Of a stretch of DNA of 64,000 nt, positions 22,308 through 62,885 are shown piece by piece. Below the pieces are notes generated by a model. It was not told where the DNA came from. It searched no databases and was given only the letters and a program-made list of their open reading frames with translations. The position numbers and the translations under genes were made by a program. Source of the DNA: Schistosoma haematobium (Eukaryota; Platyhelminthes; Trematoda; Strigeidida; Schistosomatidae); assembly GCF_000699445.3 (NCBI RefSeq), contig NC_067198.1, forward strand, positions 43,579,691 through 43,643,690. Reading direction: 5' to 3'. Positions within the stretch are counted from its first letter, which is position 1. Each line of letters opens with the position of its first letter.

Positions 22308-22429
22308 TGGTTAGGGTTTTTTAGCGAGTTAGTTTTCTACGAGATGGGGTCACTAACCCCATGCCCAACCCTCCTCCTTTACCCGGGCTTGGAACCGGCA
22401 GTAACTCTAGAAGAGCTACATGCGGAGTT
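22308..22429 (+). repeat. Rep2 copy 3
   Basis: ATGGGGTCACTAACCCCAT is a perfect 7-bp hairpin with a 4-base loop, followed by the usual CCCAACCCTCCTCC block. Confidence 0.8.
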
Positions 22430-22679
22430 AATAGGAATGGTTGATCAAGAATTCTTCTACTTATTAAGTCATTGGTCAGACAGACAGTATCTTCATTGAA
22501 TTACATTCCGAAACATGTAAAAATTTATTGAGTTACCATTAGCTGTTTATCATTGTTATTTATTAGGTCTGTTACAATCAGCCTTACCCTTGTTTTTTTC
22601 GGTCGTTAAATTGAAAGAAATATAAGTTTGAAAAAGTGATATCCAAGAAGATCGGAGAAGATTGCCAATAACTGGATAT

Positions 22680-24139: not shown

Positions 24140-24600
24140 CTTGTTAACTATTTCATCCTAATTTGTGACTCTTCAACAATGTACATTCATTCACAATTGA
24201 TTAATCACTGGGTAGTGATCAGTGTCATGTTTGTCGAGTTCTTCTTAGTGCAGATCGAATGCTATCAACCATGTTGCAATGTGGCTACAAGTCTAGGTGA
24301 CTCGACATTGTGTGCACTATTTTGAGATAGAATGGTGGTTGAAGGTAGTCAACAGGAAAACATGGACACGGGTTTCGTGCTATTTGGCACTCATCATCAA
24401 GGTGTACGTGTAATCTTACGGGGACTGATTTTACGATAGGACGAATCAGTATAGACAATGATGCGACTTCTAAGTAATATCTTATAGATTAGATAGTCTA
24501 GTGGTAACGTCTCTGACTGTGAAGCTAGGCGGAACGGGATCGAATCCGTCAGGGGCATCATTACAGGTACACCTTGCTGACAAGTGTTAAGTAGTACATT
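24140..24600. mobile_element. HH-SINE-B fold-back composite (with a short HH-SINE-A remnant)
   Basis: About 24200-24430 matches the plus-strand orientation of the 52299-52625 insert after rearrangement, including TGGTGGTTGAAGGTAGTCAA and GGGTTTCGTGCTATTTGGCA. 24486-24600 is the opposite orientation, with GTGGTAACGTCTCTGACTGT and the B-box-like GGGATCGAATCCG. Hammerhead cores are ATGATGA (minus) and CTGACAA (plus), both broken. 24140-24190 resembles an HH-SINE-A hammerhead. Confidence 0.65.
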
Positions 24601-45009: not shown

Positions 45010-45455
45010 ATTTCACTTGTATCTTCTCAGAGTGAACATCAACTCTGCGCTTCAGGTACATCAAGCTGACGAGTCCCGAATAGGACAAAACGCGCGTTTC
45101 AGATTCCATTGCTAGCTACTATCTATCTTCGCTTAAAATGCTTGTAAATAAAAGCTATATCGAGGCAATTCGTACAGGATGCACATATGCCAACAAGTGA
45201 CTAATTAATTACAGTCCTAAATAACAATAAGAAGATACAAATAAACCAACATCAAGTGAATTTAAACTTCACCACATTGCATAAACAAATGGCTATCAAG
45301 ACTCAGTGGATAACGTGATATCATTTAAAGCGAATAGTACTTGAGTTCGAGTTCAACAGTAAAACATCAACTCTGAATTGTAAGTACATCTAGCTGACAA
45401 GTCTCAAATAGGACGAAACTCATATCCTGTATTCCATTGTTTAAAAATCATCTTT
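45010..45455 (+). mobile_element. Two tandem Smα-like units
   Basis: The hammerhead cores start at 45066 and 45394, a period of 328 bp. Between them lies one full unit: stem-I partner and ATTCCATTGCTAGC, GCACATATGCCAACAAGTGA, TTCACCACATTGCATAAACA, head and decayed B box. The first core is CTGACGA but GAAA has become AAAA; the second is CTGACAA with GAAA. Both are expected to be inactive. Confidence 0.82.
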
Positions 45456-50172: not shown

Positions 50173-50462
50173 AGAATAAACTTGTTAGTGTTGATATGAC
50201 TCATATAGAATGTTAACTTGTATCAACCTATATGTTAAGTGAGAGTTTTGTGATCCATGATCAGAATAAATATGGGTCAGATGGGTGAGAAAAATAGTAG
50301 TGAGATTACAATTCGATGAAATGCTTAGTGTAAGACCATAGTGTGTGAAAAATTAGTAAGATATAATAAGGTGGGATGAATGTGAAGTGAATAAATCATT
50401 TACTGGGGAGATTAATAATGGTGGTCAACCAATAGTAATATCTGAAGAGCTGCAACGATCCT
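50173..50462. other. Sequence upstream of the Penelope element
   Basis: No recognised repeat; it may be Penelope 5' untranslated sequence. Confidence 0.35.
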
Positions 50463-52298
50463 GTGACAGTAAGGGAACTTGATGGGTTTCTTAGGTTTTC
50501 TATCAAGCTTGCTATAGCAAATTCCAGAATCAATGTTCTGAAAAGCCCCATAGACAAACGTGAATATCCGAAACCATTTTTCGAGCCATTACGCCGAAAA
50601 AAAATCCATCCAAATCATTGTTCTTTAAAATATCCCACCTTGAATTATGTCGATGAAATTAAGTCTAGAATACCAGAATTGGAATGGAATATTTCATTAC
50701 GAACACATGCATTACATGGTTTGTCAGAAGATCAACGTTTCAAGCTCAAAGATTCCATTGATATTGTTGGCAGAAATCATTCAGAAGATGTGATTTTAAA
50801 ATTAATAAAAAGCTTAAAACCGACCAGGACTCAAGATTTTTTTCCGGAAACGCCAGAGAAACATGCTCTCATGTACAACATTATCGACTATTCAGCTACA
50901 AGCATTATCTCTTGCTCCTAAATTTCATAGTAAGTTAGCTAATGTTAGTGAACTCAACGCTAAAATCCAATTTGAAAGCCTCATTTGTCAGACAAGTGAC
51001 CTTATTCCAGTATCCAATAAAGATTATGAGCATTTCAAAAAACCTCTTGTAGATTTTTGTAATCAATATGTAAACACAATACCTACAATTAGTCGATTGC
51101 ACACAAATGAGCATAAATCTCAATTATCTGAACTTTGGAGAGATCAGGACTTTGTGTTTTGTCTCCCTGACAAGGGTGCAGGAACTGTCCTTATGGATCT
51201 TCTTGACTATGTCACCAAAATATCTTCGATATTATCTGTCAAATTCTCCAAAGAAACCATTCAAAAAGACGTAACTGCGAAAAACCGAATAGATGTTAAT
51301 TAAAGTTCTAAAGAAGATGAAAGATGAGTTTATTACCAATTGTGACTTCTATGAACATCTTTAACCATCGAGTTCCGTTATACCAAGACTATATGGACTC
51401 CCAAATGTTCATAAGAATAATGTCCCTCTTCATCCTATACTTGATATGAACAACCCTCCGTAACACGCGTTGGATGATACAGATGAATGGAGTTGCAATG
51501 GGTTCTCTGTAGGTTCCCCTTTGGGCTGATTGTTTTATGGCCAACATAGAAAATATGGTACTTCGACCAATAATTGAGAGATTTAGTTTCTATAAGAGAT
51601 ATATGGATGACACTTTCATTATTTGAGAATAAGATACGAACCTCAATGAAATTTTGAATAGTTTCAATAATTGTCAGCCCTCAATTCAATTCACTTTGGA
51701 AGAAGAAGTAAACGAGGAGTTTTATTTTCTTTATACCCGTTTGAAAAGAAGGTCAGATCATTTTTCACAGACATCTATATATAGAAAGCTGACCTGGAAT
51801 AGGCAGTACACGAATTTCAATAGTTGATTTCGATTGATTAGAAAGAGGAACCTAATTCACTCTTTATTCTCAAGGATCAGGCGAATATGTTCTACTGACA
51901 CAATAGATGGGAAACTACTTCAAGTTCGTCAGACTCACATTAAGAATGGTTATCCACCTATATTCGTCGATAGACGTCATTCGTAAAGAGCACCGACAGT
52001 ACAAAAGAAAACTCTTTTCATGTATGTAGAATTTAACTAAGATACGGCTGCTGAAATCTTGAATAAAGGGATTTCAAATTCGTTGGATAAAACGTTCTAC
52101 TCAGCTAAGCTCCAAATTGTTTTCTCAAGACAGCCTACAATTCATGGATATGTTAAGGATTAACATCTGCTTTGGGCCATATCAATGTGCATCTATGAAT
52201 CGACTTGCTCATGTGGGACAGGTTACATTGGCCGCACAAAAACTGTCACTTTCCAAATACATCTCAGAACACTATTCAGCTTGGCTTTTAAAAGAAGA
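50463..52298 (+). pseudogene. Penelope-like retroelement, N-terminal region, RT and start of GIY-YIG tail (decayed)
   Basis: Penelope-like elements encode one protein with a reverse transcriptase and usually a C-terminal GIY-YIG nuclease. The first frame (50463-50921) contains WNISLRTHALHGLSEDQRFK and is followed by a frameshift. The second (50863-51303) contains LWRDQDFVFCLPDKGAGTVL then MDLLDYVTKISSIL, the conserved PDKG..VVLMD.DYV.KM.sIL block of Penelope RT. After further breaks, about 51480-51560 holds NGVAMGSL-like and ANIENMVL-like sequence, and 51582-51620 reads FSFYKRYMDDTFII with the catalytic YMDD at 51600-51611, then a stop. Downstream is EILNSFNNCQPSIQFTLEEE. 52117-52298 resembles the GIY-YIG segment (RLAHVGQVTLAAQKLSLSKY, ISEHYSAWLLKE). 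S. mansoni Perere-10 is the likely relative. Many stops and frameshifts make it inactive. The frame is interrupted at 52298 by an HH-SINE-B insertion. Confidence 0.8.
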
Positions 52299-52636
52299 TT
52301 AGATGGTGGTTGGAGGTAATTGACAGGAAACCTTGGACCCAGGTTTCGTGCTACTTGGCACTCGTCAGCAAGGTGTACCTGTAATCTTGAGGGAACTGGT
52401 GCTCCCTGGCGGATTCGATCTCGTGTCACCCAGTTTCACAGTCAGAGACGCTACCACTGTCGACTACCTCCAACCACCATCTAATCTCAATATATAGTGC
52501 CCGCAGTGTCAAGTCACCTAGACTGGTGGCCAAATTGCAACATGATCGATAGCATTCGATCTGCACTAAATAAGGAATTGACACACATGACATTGATCAC
52601 CACCCAGTGATCAATCAATTGTGATTTAAAAGAAGA
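52288..52636 (-). mobile_element. HH-SINE-B insertion with 11-bp target-site duplication
   Basis: TTAAAAGAAGA occurs at 52288-52298 and again at 52626-52636 and bounds a 327-bp insert (52299-52625). On the minus strand the insert has an A-box-like GTGGTAGCGTCTCTG, a B-box-like GAGATCGAATCCG, an intact hammerhead, and a GAGGTAATTG/CCAACCACCATC end. A long duplication, Pol III boxes and no coding sequence fit a SINE mobilised by LINE machinery. The Penelope reading frame continues after it. Confidence 0.88.
52330..52374 (-). ncRNA. Hammerhead ribozyme, fully paired (HH-SINE-B)
   Basis: Minus strand: stem I ACCTTG with CAAGGT (perfect), core CTGACGA, stem II GTGC with GCAC around CAAGTA, GAAA, stem III ACC with GGT and a two-base TG loop, cleavage triplet GTC. 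It is the best-formed hammerhead in the window. Confidence 0.85.
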
Positions 52637-52870
52637 ATATATAACAATGACTAGTTCAATACATGAACATTTAATCAACTATGGACACATAGCTCCAAAG
52701 AAGTCTTCTTTCAAAGTAATCTACACAGTCAAAGAAACTAGATCGAACAGAATTCGAATCAAAATCTTATGCACTGTTGAGGCATTGCCAATCTACCAAA
52801 TCAAATCCAAAATTTGAGTTCAAAAAACGATTTGTCCAATCTCTCAACCTTCCTTGATTCTGAGTACCTT
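52637..52870 (+). pseudogene. Penelope-like retroelement C-terminus (continuation after the SINE)
   Basis: With the duplicated LKE codons the frame reads EYITMTSSIHEHLINYGHIA, PKKSSFKVIYTVKETRSNRI, RIKILCTVEALPIYQIKSKI, a TGA at 52815-52817, then VQKTICPISQPSLI. This is the usual Penelope C-terminal pattern (EH...GH, EAL/I...KP, VQ...SLP) and the same layout as 39770-39922. Confidence 0.75.
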
Positions 52871-54258: not shown

Positions 54259-55347
54259 ATGACTATAGACTTGGCCTACATTGATTTCAGTAAAGCTTTT
54301 GACAAAGTTCTACACAACCGGCTGTTATATAAGCTAAGGAATGTCGGAATTGGAAGCAATCTATTGATATGGATAAAAGACTTCCTAGTTGGGATCCAGC
54401 AAAGAGTACGGGTGAACTCAAAGTCATCTAGCTGGGAAACTGTGTTTAGTGTAGTGCCCTAGGGTACAGTTTTGGGGCCAGTGCTATTCCTCTTTTATGT
54501 AAATGGCCTTACTCGTCTCCTATCAACATCGGTCTTGCTATGTGCTGACGACGTCAAGATATGGAGAACGATACGATATAAGAGTGATAGCTTAGAACTT
54601 CGAAATGACCTGAAGAAGTTATCTGAATGGTCTCAAACATGGCAGTTGCCGATAGATACTTCCAAGTGTGTTGTGATGCATATCAGTCATCAAGGCACAG
54701 ATACATACACGATGAATAACACTGAGCTACATGTCGTCCAGACATATAATGACTTAGGAGTCATCGTTAGCCAAGACTTAAAGACTACTGCACACTGCCG
54801 TGCAATATCCGCCAAAGGTTTTAGAACGTTATGGTCAATACGTAGAGCTTTTAGTCATGTCGACGCCAAAACGTTTTTGACTCTGTATACAGTGTTCGTT
54901 CGTCCTAAACTTGAGTACTGAATACAAGCGGCTAGCCCCTGCTTAAAAAAAGACAGTGAGCTTCTGGAAAAGGTTCAGAGAACGGCGACTAAGCTGGTTC
55001 CCGGAATAACGAAGCTTCCGTATGAATCTCGACTGGCCAAGCTGAACCTTTTCCCGTTGTCATATCGCAGAACTAGAGGCAACTTGATTACAGTCTACAA
55101 ATTGCTTAGTGATAAATTTGCACCTGATATGCCCTCATTTTTCTTGTCTTCCAAAACAGAGAATTTACGAGGACACTCCAAAAAAGTTCACAAGCCGAGA
55201 ACAAATTACTTGTCAGCTGACTATTGACTTTCCCATCGAATCATCAACGAGTGGAATTCATTACTTCAGCACGTGGTTGAGGCTCCATCCGTTGACCCTT
55301 TCAAAAGAAAGTTAGGTCAACTGAGAGACCACCATTGCCAGGACTAA
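54259..55347 (+). pseudogene. CR1/Jockey-type non-LTR retrotransposon RT and C-terminal domain, 5' truncated
   Basis: The frame from 54259 reads YIDFSKAFDKVLHNRLLYKL, the RT palm motif, then ends at TAG 54460-54462 where the motif VPQG requires Gln. It continues in the same frame from 54472: GPVLFLFYVNGLTRLLS, LLCADDVKIW (catalytic ADD kept), LSEWSQTWQLPIDTSKCVVM, ISAKGFRTLWSIRRAFSHVD, FVRPKLEY then TGA at 54919-54921. It goes on through IQAASPCLKKDSELLEKVQR and AKLNLFPLSYRRTRGNLITV, a third stop at 55225-55227, and IINEWNSLLQHVVEAPSVDP, ending at TAA 55345-55347. With only three in-frame stops and no frameshift it is the best-preserved retroelement frame in the window. SR1/Perere-type CR1 elements of schistosomes are the likely relatives. 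The endonuclease domain and RT N-terminus are missing. Confidence 0.85.
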
Positions 55348-57185: not shown

Positions 57186-57424
57186 TCTGGAATATGATAA
57201 ATACCATAAAAACACCAAATATTCCACAACACGGAATTTTAGACTGATCATCTATTTAGTTTCCTCCTTTAGTTCTGATATGTCGGGATTAAAATAGCGG
57301 TATTACGTTGTTTTTCTTTATTCATCGTGATGTTTATTCAATATCACTTTTATTTTTAATTCAACGTGATGATTACACAGTGAAGTATTTGTTTTGTATT
57401 TCCAGTGTGATATTCTTTTTTGAT

Positions 57425-57958
57425 TGAGATCATCAACCAATTGATGTTAGATCCCCATTGAAAACCTGGAAGCACTGGACGGCCAACTCATCCTGTTGTC
57501 GGACTCCGCAGCTGTGCACATCGACGACCCACTCAGGAAGTTCGATGCCAGGGCCTTCAGTTTCACGCGCGAACGCTTGACCTCTAGATCACTGAATAGG
57601 CAGGCATTCAACTGTGTTAATGTTTAACGTCAACCAATCCAAGGAATTGCGCGACCATTTTGCATTGTACTTAGGAAGATAGCTGTCTCTACCCGACACG
57701 GATTAGCTCTATTGGTCACGGCTTCACACTAGAACTCCGAGAATTCCCTCACGAAGCTAGTCACTAGTGAGCACATGGTAATTATCAGTATAGGGTTGTG
57801 ATTATTCTGTTTTTGATTGAGTTTATGAATGCGCACTGCTGAGGAGTCCCACAATAGGATGAAACGGCCGTCCAATGCTTCCAGGTTTTCAACGGTGGTC
57901 GAACATCAATCGGTTCATGATCTCAATCAAAAACTTAATAATCTCCACAACCTTATAC
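57425..57958. mobile_element. HH-SINE-A full fold-back element with intact plus-strand hammerhead
   Basis: The left, minus-strand half has a broken core (CTGCGGA). The right half (from about 57825) is plus strand with an intact core. The termini TTTTTGATTGAGATCATCAA and TTCATGATCTCAATCAAAAA are inverted. It contains the CACGGATTAGCTCTATTGGT / CTAGTCACTAGTGAGCACAT module. Confidence 0.85.
57833..57878 (+). ncRNA. Hammerhead ribozyme, core intact (HH-SINE-A)
   Basis: Stem I GCACTG with CAATGC (one mismatch), core CTGAGGA, stem II GTCC with GGAT (one G-U), GAAA, self-complementary stem III ACGGCCGT, cleavage triplet GTC. Confidence 0.7.
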
Positions 57959-62462: not shown

Positions 62463-62885
62463 GGATTACAGTTGATCAGTCTCTTATTGGCATATGTGCA
62501 TACTATGAGTATTGCCTCGATATTGCCTTAATCCACAAACATTCTAAGCAAAGAAAGATAGTAGCTAGCAATGGAATCCAGAATGCACGTTTCGTCCTAT
62601 TTGGGATTTGTCAACCAGATTTGCATGTATCTCAGAGTTTTCGTTCATTCTTAGACTCAAAACCAGTACCGTTTACTTCAAACGGCCTCACATTATCCAC
62701 TTGGCGATCAGAACTCAATCTCTCAGTGGATAATGCGATAGCATTTGAAGTAGACAGTACTGGGTTCAAATCCCAGAGTGAACATCAACGCTGAGATGTA
62801 GGTATATCCAGTTGACGAGTTCTAAATAGGATGAAACGCACATCCTGAATTCCATAGTTGGACACTATCCATCTTTACTTTCATG
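62463..62885. mobile_element. Smα-like inverted pair (large palindrome)
   Basis: A minus-strand unit (62463-62715) and plus-strand unit (62716-62885) meet in the head region. Cores are TTGACAA (minus) and TTGACGA (plus), both with C3 lost. Pol III B boxes are GACTCAAAACC and GGGTTCAAATCCC. Confidence 0.8.

Follow-up and report, generated by a model that had tools for sequence, protein, structure and literature searches.

Head-to-head inserts of a 345-nt hammerhead repeat in Schistosoma haematobium suggest copying of its RNA from two fixed internal sites

Introduction

Metazoan non-LTR retrozymes have been proposed to move by means of a circular RNA template with Penelope as the driver (Cervera & de la Pena 2020, PMC7229834; review PMC7761336), and platyhelminths are listed among the phyla that carry retrozyme-type repeats (PMC7229834). 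According to the review, which models a circular RNA template, no conserved motif in metazoan retrozymes reveals the retrotransposon that moves them (PMC7761336). The Smalpha and Sjalpha repeats of schistosomes have a tRNA-like head and a hammerhead in roughly 330 nt and occur both in tandem and dispersed (PMC2770079, PMC8490949).

Penelope-like elements (PLEs) offer a second point of comparison. In a lizard PLE, both target strands are cut and extended, and synthesis starts internally at two adjacent sites in an AC-rich stem loop; the genomic tail lies between the two start sites, a hammerhead lies before them and the targets are AT-rich (PMC11167929). Insertion is independent of hammerhead cleavage, and the start sites are not homologous to the target (PMC11167929). 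Rotifer Penelope copies show an adjacent inverted pLTR, duplications of 8–10 bp and a 31-bp tail (PMC3846280). Here we describe a hammerhead-bearing repeat of Schistosoma haematobium, beginning with one insert in a 64,000-nucleotide stretch of contig NC_067198.1 (the window, to whose positions all coordinates refer).

Results

A head-to-head insert in a decayed Penelope-like element

A preliminary description had reported a 327-bp insert with an 11-bp target duplication and had called it a SINE. The boundaries proved correct: TTAAAAGAAGA occurs twice in the window, as an unstranded left copy at 52288–52298 and right copy at 52626–52636, and flanks 327 bp; the duplication may be 12 bp long, as a T before TTAAAAGAAGA is common to both sides. 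The SINE assignment was not supported. The insert instead consists of two pieces of a 345-nt unit placed head to head, with a join that varies between copies. Arm 1 (52299–52459, minus strand) is inverted and runs from unit position 174 down to 14 (alignment of unit 14–177 at 52459–52296); its outer end, CCATCTAA, lies at about unit 174, and in the minus-strand sense it contains the hammerhead, the B box and the 3' half of the A box. Arm 2 (52457–52625, plus strand) is direct and runs from unit 147 to 314/315 (alignment of unit 147–316 at 52457–52626), with CAATTGTGA(T) as its outer end at unit 314. The two arms overlap by 3 nt at their join. They are marked by a 31-nt inverted repeat that was absent from the preliminary description, the left copy of which (52296–52326, plus strand) is the overlap of the two arms and the right copy of which lies at 52457–52487 (plus strand). 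An AC-rich stretch, CCAACCACCATCTAA, leads up to the 174 end, and a hairpin with a CACCCA loop, TGATCAC-CACCCA-GTGATCA (52594–52613, plus strand), precedes the 314 end by about 11 nt. The 327-bp form is thus one outcome of two-armed insertion of a 345-nt repeating unit.

Of the tRNA-like Pol III boxes previously claimed, the B box is present (AGATCGAATCC, 52411–52421, minus strand; unit 52–62), but the A box is incomplete in the window copy because arm 1 ends at unit 14, within the A-box-like stretch (unit 9–19). ARAGORN found no tRNA in the 64-kb window. The window also holds a second, older copy of the unit at 24191–24427 (minus strand), which covers unit 75–314 and ends at unit 314; an inverted piece of the unit, 7–125, lies beside it at 24492–24597 (plus strand; both from alignment within the window).

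The sequence hit by the insertion is a decayed Penelope-like element (50439–52817, plus strand), the frame of which resumes after the insert and runs to a stop at 52815–52817. The continuous Penelope frame described before exists locally across the insert, but the earlier frames hold many stops and shifts. This element carries YMDD at about 51600 and C.CG..YIGRT (GIY-YIG-like) at about 52206, which we take to be Penelope motifs. Pfam gave no credible match for the Penelope-like pieces (one chance hit, E 0.069) and a protein search with one such piece found nothing, so the name Penelope rests on these YMDD and GIY-YIG-like motifs. We also observed a reverse transcriptase fragment at 54463–54921, scoring 28.2 bits against RVT_1, just below the Pfam cut-off of 29.6, and a Penelope-like stretch at 50420 that resembles the 174 site.

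The unit and its copies

We built a unit consensus of 345 nt from 60 loci (L001–L060). It has a tRNA-like head at position 1 and a hammerhead at 99–143 with a predicted cut after 137; CCATCTAA ends at 174, CAATTGTGA ends at 314, and 315–345 joins the next head. The B box of the unit, GGATCGAATCC, fits the Pol III consensus, and the A-box-like TAGCTCAGTGG (9–19) is one letter off the exact pattern used. The element is a 345-nt, tRNA-headed, hammerhead-bearing repeat with no protein of its own. It is far from single-copy, as the 36-nt tail of the unit has 707 exact places (375 + 332) and the reversed control has 0. Among the first 100 listed of these places we found three tandem tail pairs, 344–345 nt apart, and saw no long head-to-tail arrays. 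When the insert was used as the query, 40 of 2636 candidates were scored, and these were the window copy and 39 nearly full-length others at 82–94% identity. In an alignment of 30 copies, the window copy included, the sequence from the inverted repeat to the tRNA-like head varied from copy to copy, which indicates that the insert does not represent a fixed unit.

The hammerhead and its relatives in the window

The window copy contains a type I hammerhead at 52330–52374 (minus strand) that scores 44.5 bits against RF00163 (gathering threshold 34), with cleavage predicted from the motif after GTC, between 52336 and 52335 on the minus strand. Stems I, II and III all pair in this copy, as had been claimed, with one U-G in stem III. 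In an alignment of 25 hammerheads from three families, 89.4% of stem cells were paired, versus 25.0–37.5% in slid controls. The proposal of covariation between families fared less uniformly: three measures were positive, beyond all shuffles, and two were not. The covariation score was 0.426 versus 0.209 in shuffles, and 56 stem cells had both sides changed versus 25.2 (0/500 shuffles reached the observed value in either case, for the same 25 hammerheads). By contrast, pairs changed on both sides (7/14) showed no excess over shuffles (6.6; 258/500), nor did further pair types (19 versus 18.4). Covariation between the three hammerhead families thus appears mostly supported. RNAfold of the 45-nt hammerhead was no better than for shuffles (z −0.44). 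Among 104 family hammerheads found with at most 7 substitutions, the core was kept in 68 and varied about as much as the stems (4.9% versus 6.1%), as expected if selection acts on source copies alone. Given the intact family consensus, it is plausible that the ribozyme is functional.

This hammerhead family had been described as separate, and it is indeed distinct from the two other families in the window and present in hundreds of copies. The unit matched the window's Smalpha-like copies over only 22–45 nt, at the hammerhead, and gave elsewhere no more than stray weak hits, each 43 nt or less in length (E-value limit 10). The window copies are presumably Smalpha-like, as labelled in the preliminary description. 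One Smalpha-like hammerhead repeat forms a tandem pair at 45035–45091 and 45363–45419 with 328-nt spacing, and two Smalpha-like elements stand head to head at 62546–62708 and 62718–62880, with 163-nt arms that are 72% complementary. The other family (family A) has inverted arms at 57417–57521 and 57829–57933 and in other window copies, with true ends beyond the aligned part; we withdrew a reading of family A as having two ends of one kind, as the flanks show that the element extends further. Stem III is a palindromic 8-mer in the unit consensus (ACCCGGGT; the window copy has ACCTGGGT at 52337–52344) and also in copies from both other families (ACGGCCGT at 57833 and ACGCGCGT at 45060), so dimer pairing of two ribozymes would be possible. 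A Type-P1 twister ribozyme lies at 22365–22434 (minus strand, 72.5 bits).

Insert anatomy across the genome

We compared inserts from three samples. Two were unselected with respect to arms, namely the best 30 loci by tail match (tail sample) and the first places of the exact tail pattern, 30 + 8 loci, all on contig C1 (pattern sample); because both require the tail, short inserts ending at 174 are missed. Together with the insert-query set, these gave 98 loci, from which 10 were dropped to leave 88 inserts. Seven each repeated a place already in the samples (L031, L035, L036, L060, L063, L076 and L081) and three were segmental duplicates (L015, L039 and L093). The dropped tail loci L031, L035, L036 and L060 were two-armed inserts with ends at 314 and 174, already within the insert-query set. 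L005 and L015 lie 15 kb from each other on C6 and have an identical right flank, as a single insert carried by a segmental duplication.

Outer ends were classed as site 314 (unit 303–326) or site 174 (unit 163–190). Among the 59 inserts of the unselected samples, 40 were two-armed, 38 of them with one end at 314 and the other at 174 and 2 with 314 and another end; the one-armed inserts ended at 314 (13) or at 174 (6). The tail sample (25 inserts) comprised 17 two-armed 314+174 inserts, 7 one-armed at 314 and 1 two-armed with 314 and another end (L053). The pattern sample (34 inserts) comprised 21 two-armed 314+174 inserts, 6 one-armed at 314, 6 one-armed at 174 and 1 with 314 and another end (L096). 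All 29 distinct copies in the insert-query sample were two-armed 314+174 inserts, although this sample was selected for that form. Of the site-314 ends, 53/67 lay at unit 314–317 when shared letters were assigned to the element, and 61/65 site-174 ends lay at unit 173–182.

Target duplications were found in 69/88 inserts (29/29 insert-query, 17/25 tail and 23/34 pattern, or 40/59 in the unselected samples), and 55/69 of them were 11–15 bp long. The duplication finder returned 0/60 on random placements, and the apparent duplication of L041, which is the element's own sequence, was left out of the count. No duplication was found in 4 of the 38 two-armed 314+174 inserts, and L053 and L096 were also without one. 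The first base of the duplication, reading away from the arm, was A in 35/67 and 40/65. Microhomology between target and unit exceeded shuffles (1.69 versus 0.54, and 1.22 versus 0.57), with part of the excess arising from the choice of the longest duplication.

The inner ends of the arms were variable, and arm lengths were widely spread. At the join, the arms overlapped by 1–6 nt in 47/66 simple two-armed inserts, most commonly by 2–3 nt, to which BLAST end extension may add. Among the 35 simple two-armed inserts that came from the unselected samples, a single pair had joins matching within 2 nt. We rejected a flip of one cassette, in which the core inverts between inverted repeats, because the joins differ between copies. 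We also set aside a ribozyme effect as the origin of inner ends at unit 145–148, as GGATAG/GACAGG-like letters are common to those joins (by eye).

Arm sequences and the RNA template

Arms continue through the point where one unit meets the next head to tail, and 15/161 arms are longer than 345 nt, or over one turn. The ribozyme cut site is crossed by 70/73 site-174 arms and 40/82 site-314 arms, indicating that those templates were continuous there; the crossing in 70/73 site-174 arms is compatible with either a closed or an uncut template. There was no clear pile-up of arm ends within 5 nt of the hammerhead cut (9/82 site-314 arms and 1/73 site-174 arms). Of those 9 site-314 arms, 6 came from the insert-selected set, in which the insert's own join is nearby, and 3 were unselected. 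The arm ends thus give no sure cleavage footprint, and an uncleaved template would look alike.

Variants shared among copies linked the arms of single inserts. Opposite arms of one insert agreed at 124/146 comparisons (14 shared-variant sites, 74 arm pairs), versus 55% for arms of different inserts (2000 shuffles, maximum 0.70), and the minor allele was common to both arms in 82/104 comparisons versus 38.8 expected. Transversion sites alone were concordant in 38/43 comparisons within inserts versus 58%, and divergence in the arm overlap was 7.0% within inserts versus 9.5% between them. Where an arm exceeded one turn, its second turn agreed with its first at 23/27 comparisons (12 arms). The arms disagreed at 22/146 comparisons, for example with concordance of 5/8 in L088, 2/4 in L032 and 2/5 in one arm pair of L071; we ascribe such disagreements within inserts to later mutation by assumption. 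This agreement of arms and turns indicates that both arms, and both turns, were mostly copied from a single RNA, or from RNAs with a common source. The strict pairing of two end types would fit a single monomer on which each site is used once.

Discussion

We conclude that the inserts were probably produced by copying a closed (circular) or head-to-tail RNA from two fixed internal sites into both cut strands of the target, with a Penelope-like enzyme as the likeliest agent. The template would be either a closed RNA, obtained when the hammerhead cuts a multimeric transcript and the product is ligated, or an uncut multimer. A reverse transcriptase/endonuclease would cut both strands of an AT-rich target, and each target 3' end would prime synthesis on the same RNA, at one of its two fixed internal sites. 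The two cDNAs would then be joined through a few nucleotides of microhomology, giving head-to-head arms and duplications of 11–15 bp. We favour the enzyme of a Penelope-like element because a published Penelope-like protein cuts and extends both strands and starts internally at two nearby sites. The anatomy of the inserts, taken alone, matches what is expected of a Penelope-type process, namely two fixed internal RNA sites and head-to-head arms. One insert, L044, provides a further hint. A single duplication, TAGTTCATTGT (read from the flanks), encloses both of its arms and a 135-nt filler (L044:1724–1858), of which 84 nt are 84.5% identical to the window's Penelope-like element. In this one case, the filler looks like a template switch. 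The involvement of Penelope in the model is suggested by analogy and by this captured fragment; we regard the model as a whole as probable.

The same two-armed insertion could have used a linear head-to-tail transcript of a genomic dimer as its template in place of a circle. Such dimers exist, as the three tandem pairs among the first 100 listed places illustrate, and arms of up to 468 nt would fit on them. In addition, 3/13 one-armed 314 inserts (L040, L052 and L061) start close to the tRNA-like 5' end (unit 341–1), as a linear Pol III transcript might. However, a linear dimer carries each site twice, so that inserts with both ends at 314, or both at 174, are expected, and none of the 40 two-armed inserts in the unselected samples had two ends alike. 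Moreover, 146/161 arms do not exceed one unit in length, too little to yield such a transcript, and first and second turns mostly match. We therefore consider a linear dimer unlikely as the template.

A second alternative is target-primed insertion by an ordinary LINE (such as RTE), with twin priming as in human L1 and without Penelope. In L1 twin priming the second start lies anywhere, whereas 61/65 of the 174 ends here fall at unit 173–182. In addition, the arms continue through the head-to-tail join, the one-armed inserts include both 314 and 174 ends, and every locus of the tail samples has more of the unit, or an inverted arm of it, next to the tail, all of which argue against a LINE. On the other hand, twin priming does yield inverted, truncated copies with duplications (PMC2837659), and among S. 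haematobium hammerhead RNA clusters, 2/16 overlap LINE/RTE-BovB annotations and 7/16 overlap SINE/tRNA annotations (PMC5993326). We judge this explanation to be quite improbable.

It is very improbable that the 327-bp insert forms a third SINE family of its own, as first described. The whole-insert query did return two-armed copies with both ends in 29/29 cases, and six pairs of those 29 have equal joins within 2 nt, but the join differs in most copies, 19/59 unselected inserts have a single arm and the arms span a wide range of lengths. An origin at the DNA level, through an inverted-repeat DNA transposon (MITE) or hairpin repair, could draw on the 31-nt inverted repeat but is scarcely credible, since that repeat is internal and variable in extent, duplications vary around 11–15 bp and one-armed copies exist.

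Copying from two fixed sites of one RNA, the reading that we prefer, leads to a broader and more tentative proposal. The reverse transcriptase of Penelope may insert animal hammerhead retrozymes from two dedicated starts on a single circular RNA, into both cut strands at once and for more than one turn; the schistosome head-to-head inserts might then be the record of this process, and the start sites the missing signal of the driver. A family that offers hundreds of copies, a fixed pair of start sites and shared source haplotypes makes both the driver and the template of a retrozyme testable by sequence and in vitro. The two-armed anatomy also hints at which enzyme moves such ribozyme-bearing elements. 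For annotation, the 327-bp 'SINE' should be corrected to a joined pair, and inverted arms are not to be read as separate families.

The unit resembles Smalpha and Sjalpha in its apparently tRNA-like head, its hammerhead, its similar size and its occurrence in tandem and dispersed, but it differs from Smalpha, as represented by the Smalpha-like copies of the window, in having other hammerhead stems and no homology along the unit beyond 22–45 nt at the hammerhead. Like metazoan retrozymes, whose repeats measure a few hundred nucleotides (about 150–450 nt), it combines a type I hammerhead with a short unit (345 nt), a tandem arrangement and target duplications. Unlike them, it also bears tRNA-like Pol III boxes (a B box and an A-box-like stretch), and its sampled inserts are mostly head-to-head pairs of arms whose two outer ends are fixed. 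The word 'inverted' is absent from the main text of PMC7229834, and we found no report of two fixed start sites or of two-armed inserts for a retrozyme in a literature represented mostly by titles and abstract openings. An inverted segment with a duplication is shared with L1 twin priming, from which the unit differs in its fixed second site, its probable closed or head-to-tail template and ends that can be used singly. In contrast to PLEs, which encode a reverse transcriptase and a GIY-YIG endonuclease, the unit has no room for either in its 345 nt, its two sites are 140 nt apart rather than 30–40 nt (the PLE tail being 30–40 nt), and, unlike in the lizard PLE, microhomology between unit and target exceeds shuffles. 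The anatomy of the inserts is nevertheless like that of PLEs in kind, and the CACCCA hairpin and CCAACCACCATCTAA form a loose parallel to the AC-rich stem loop of the lizard element.
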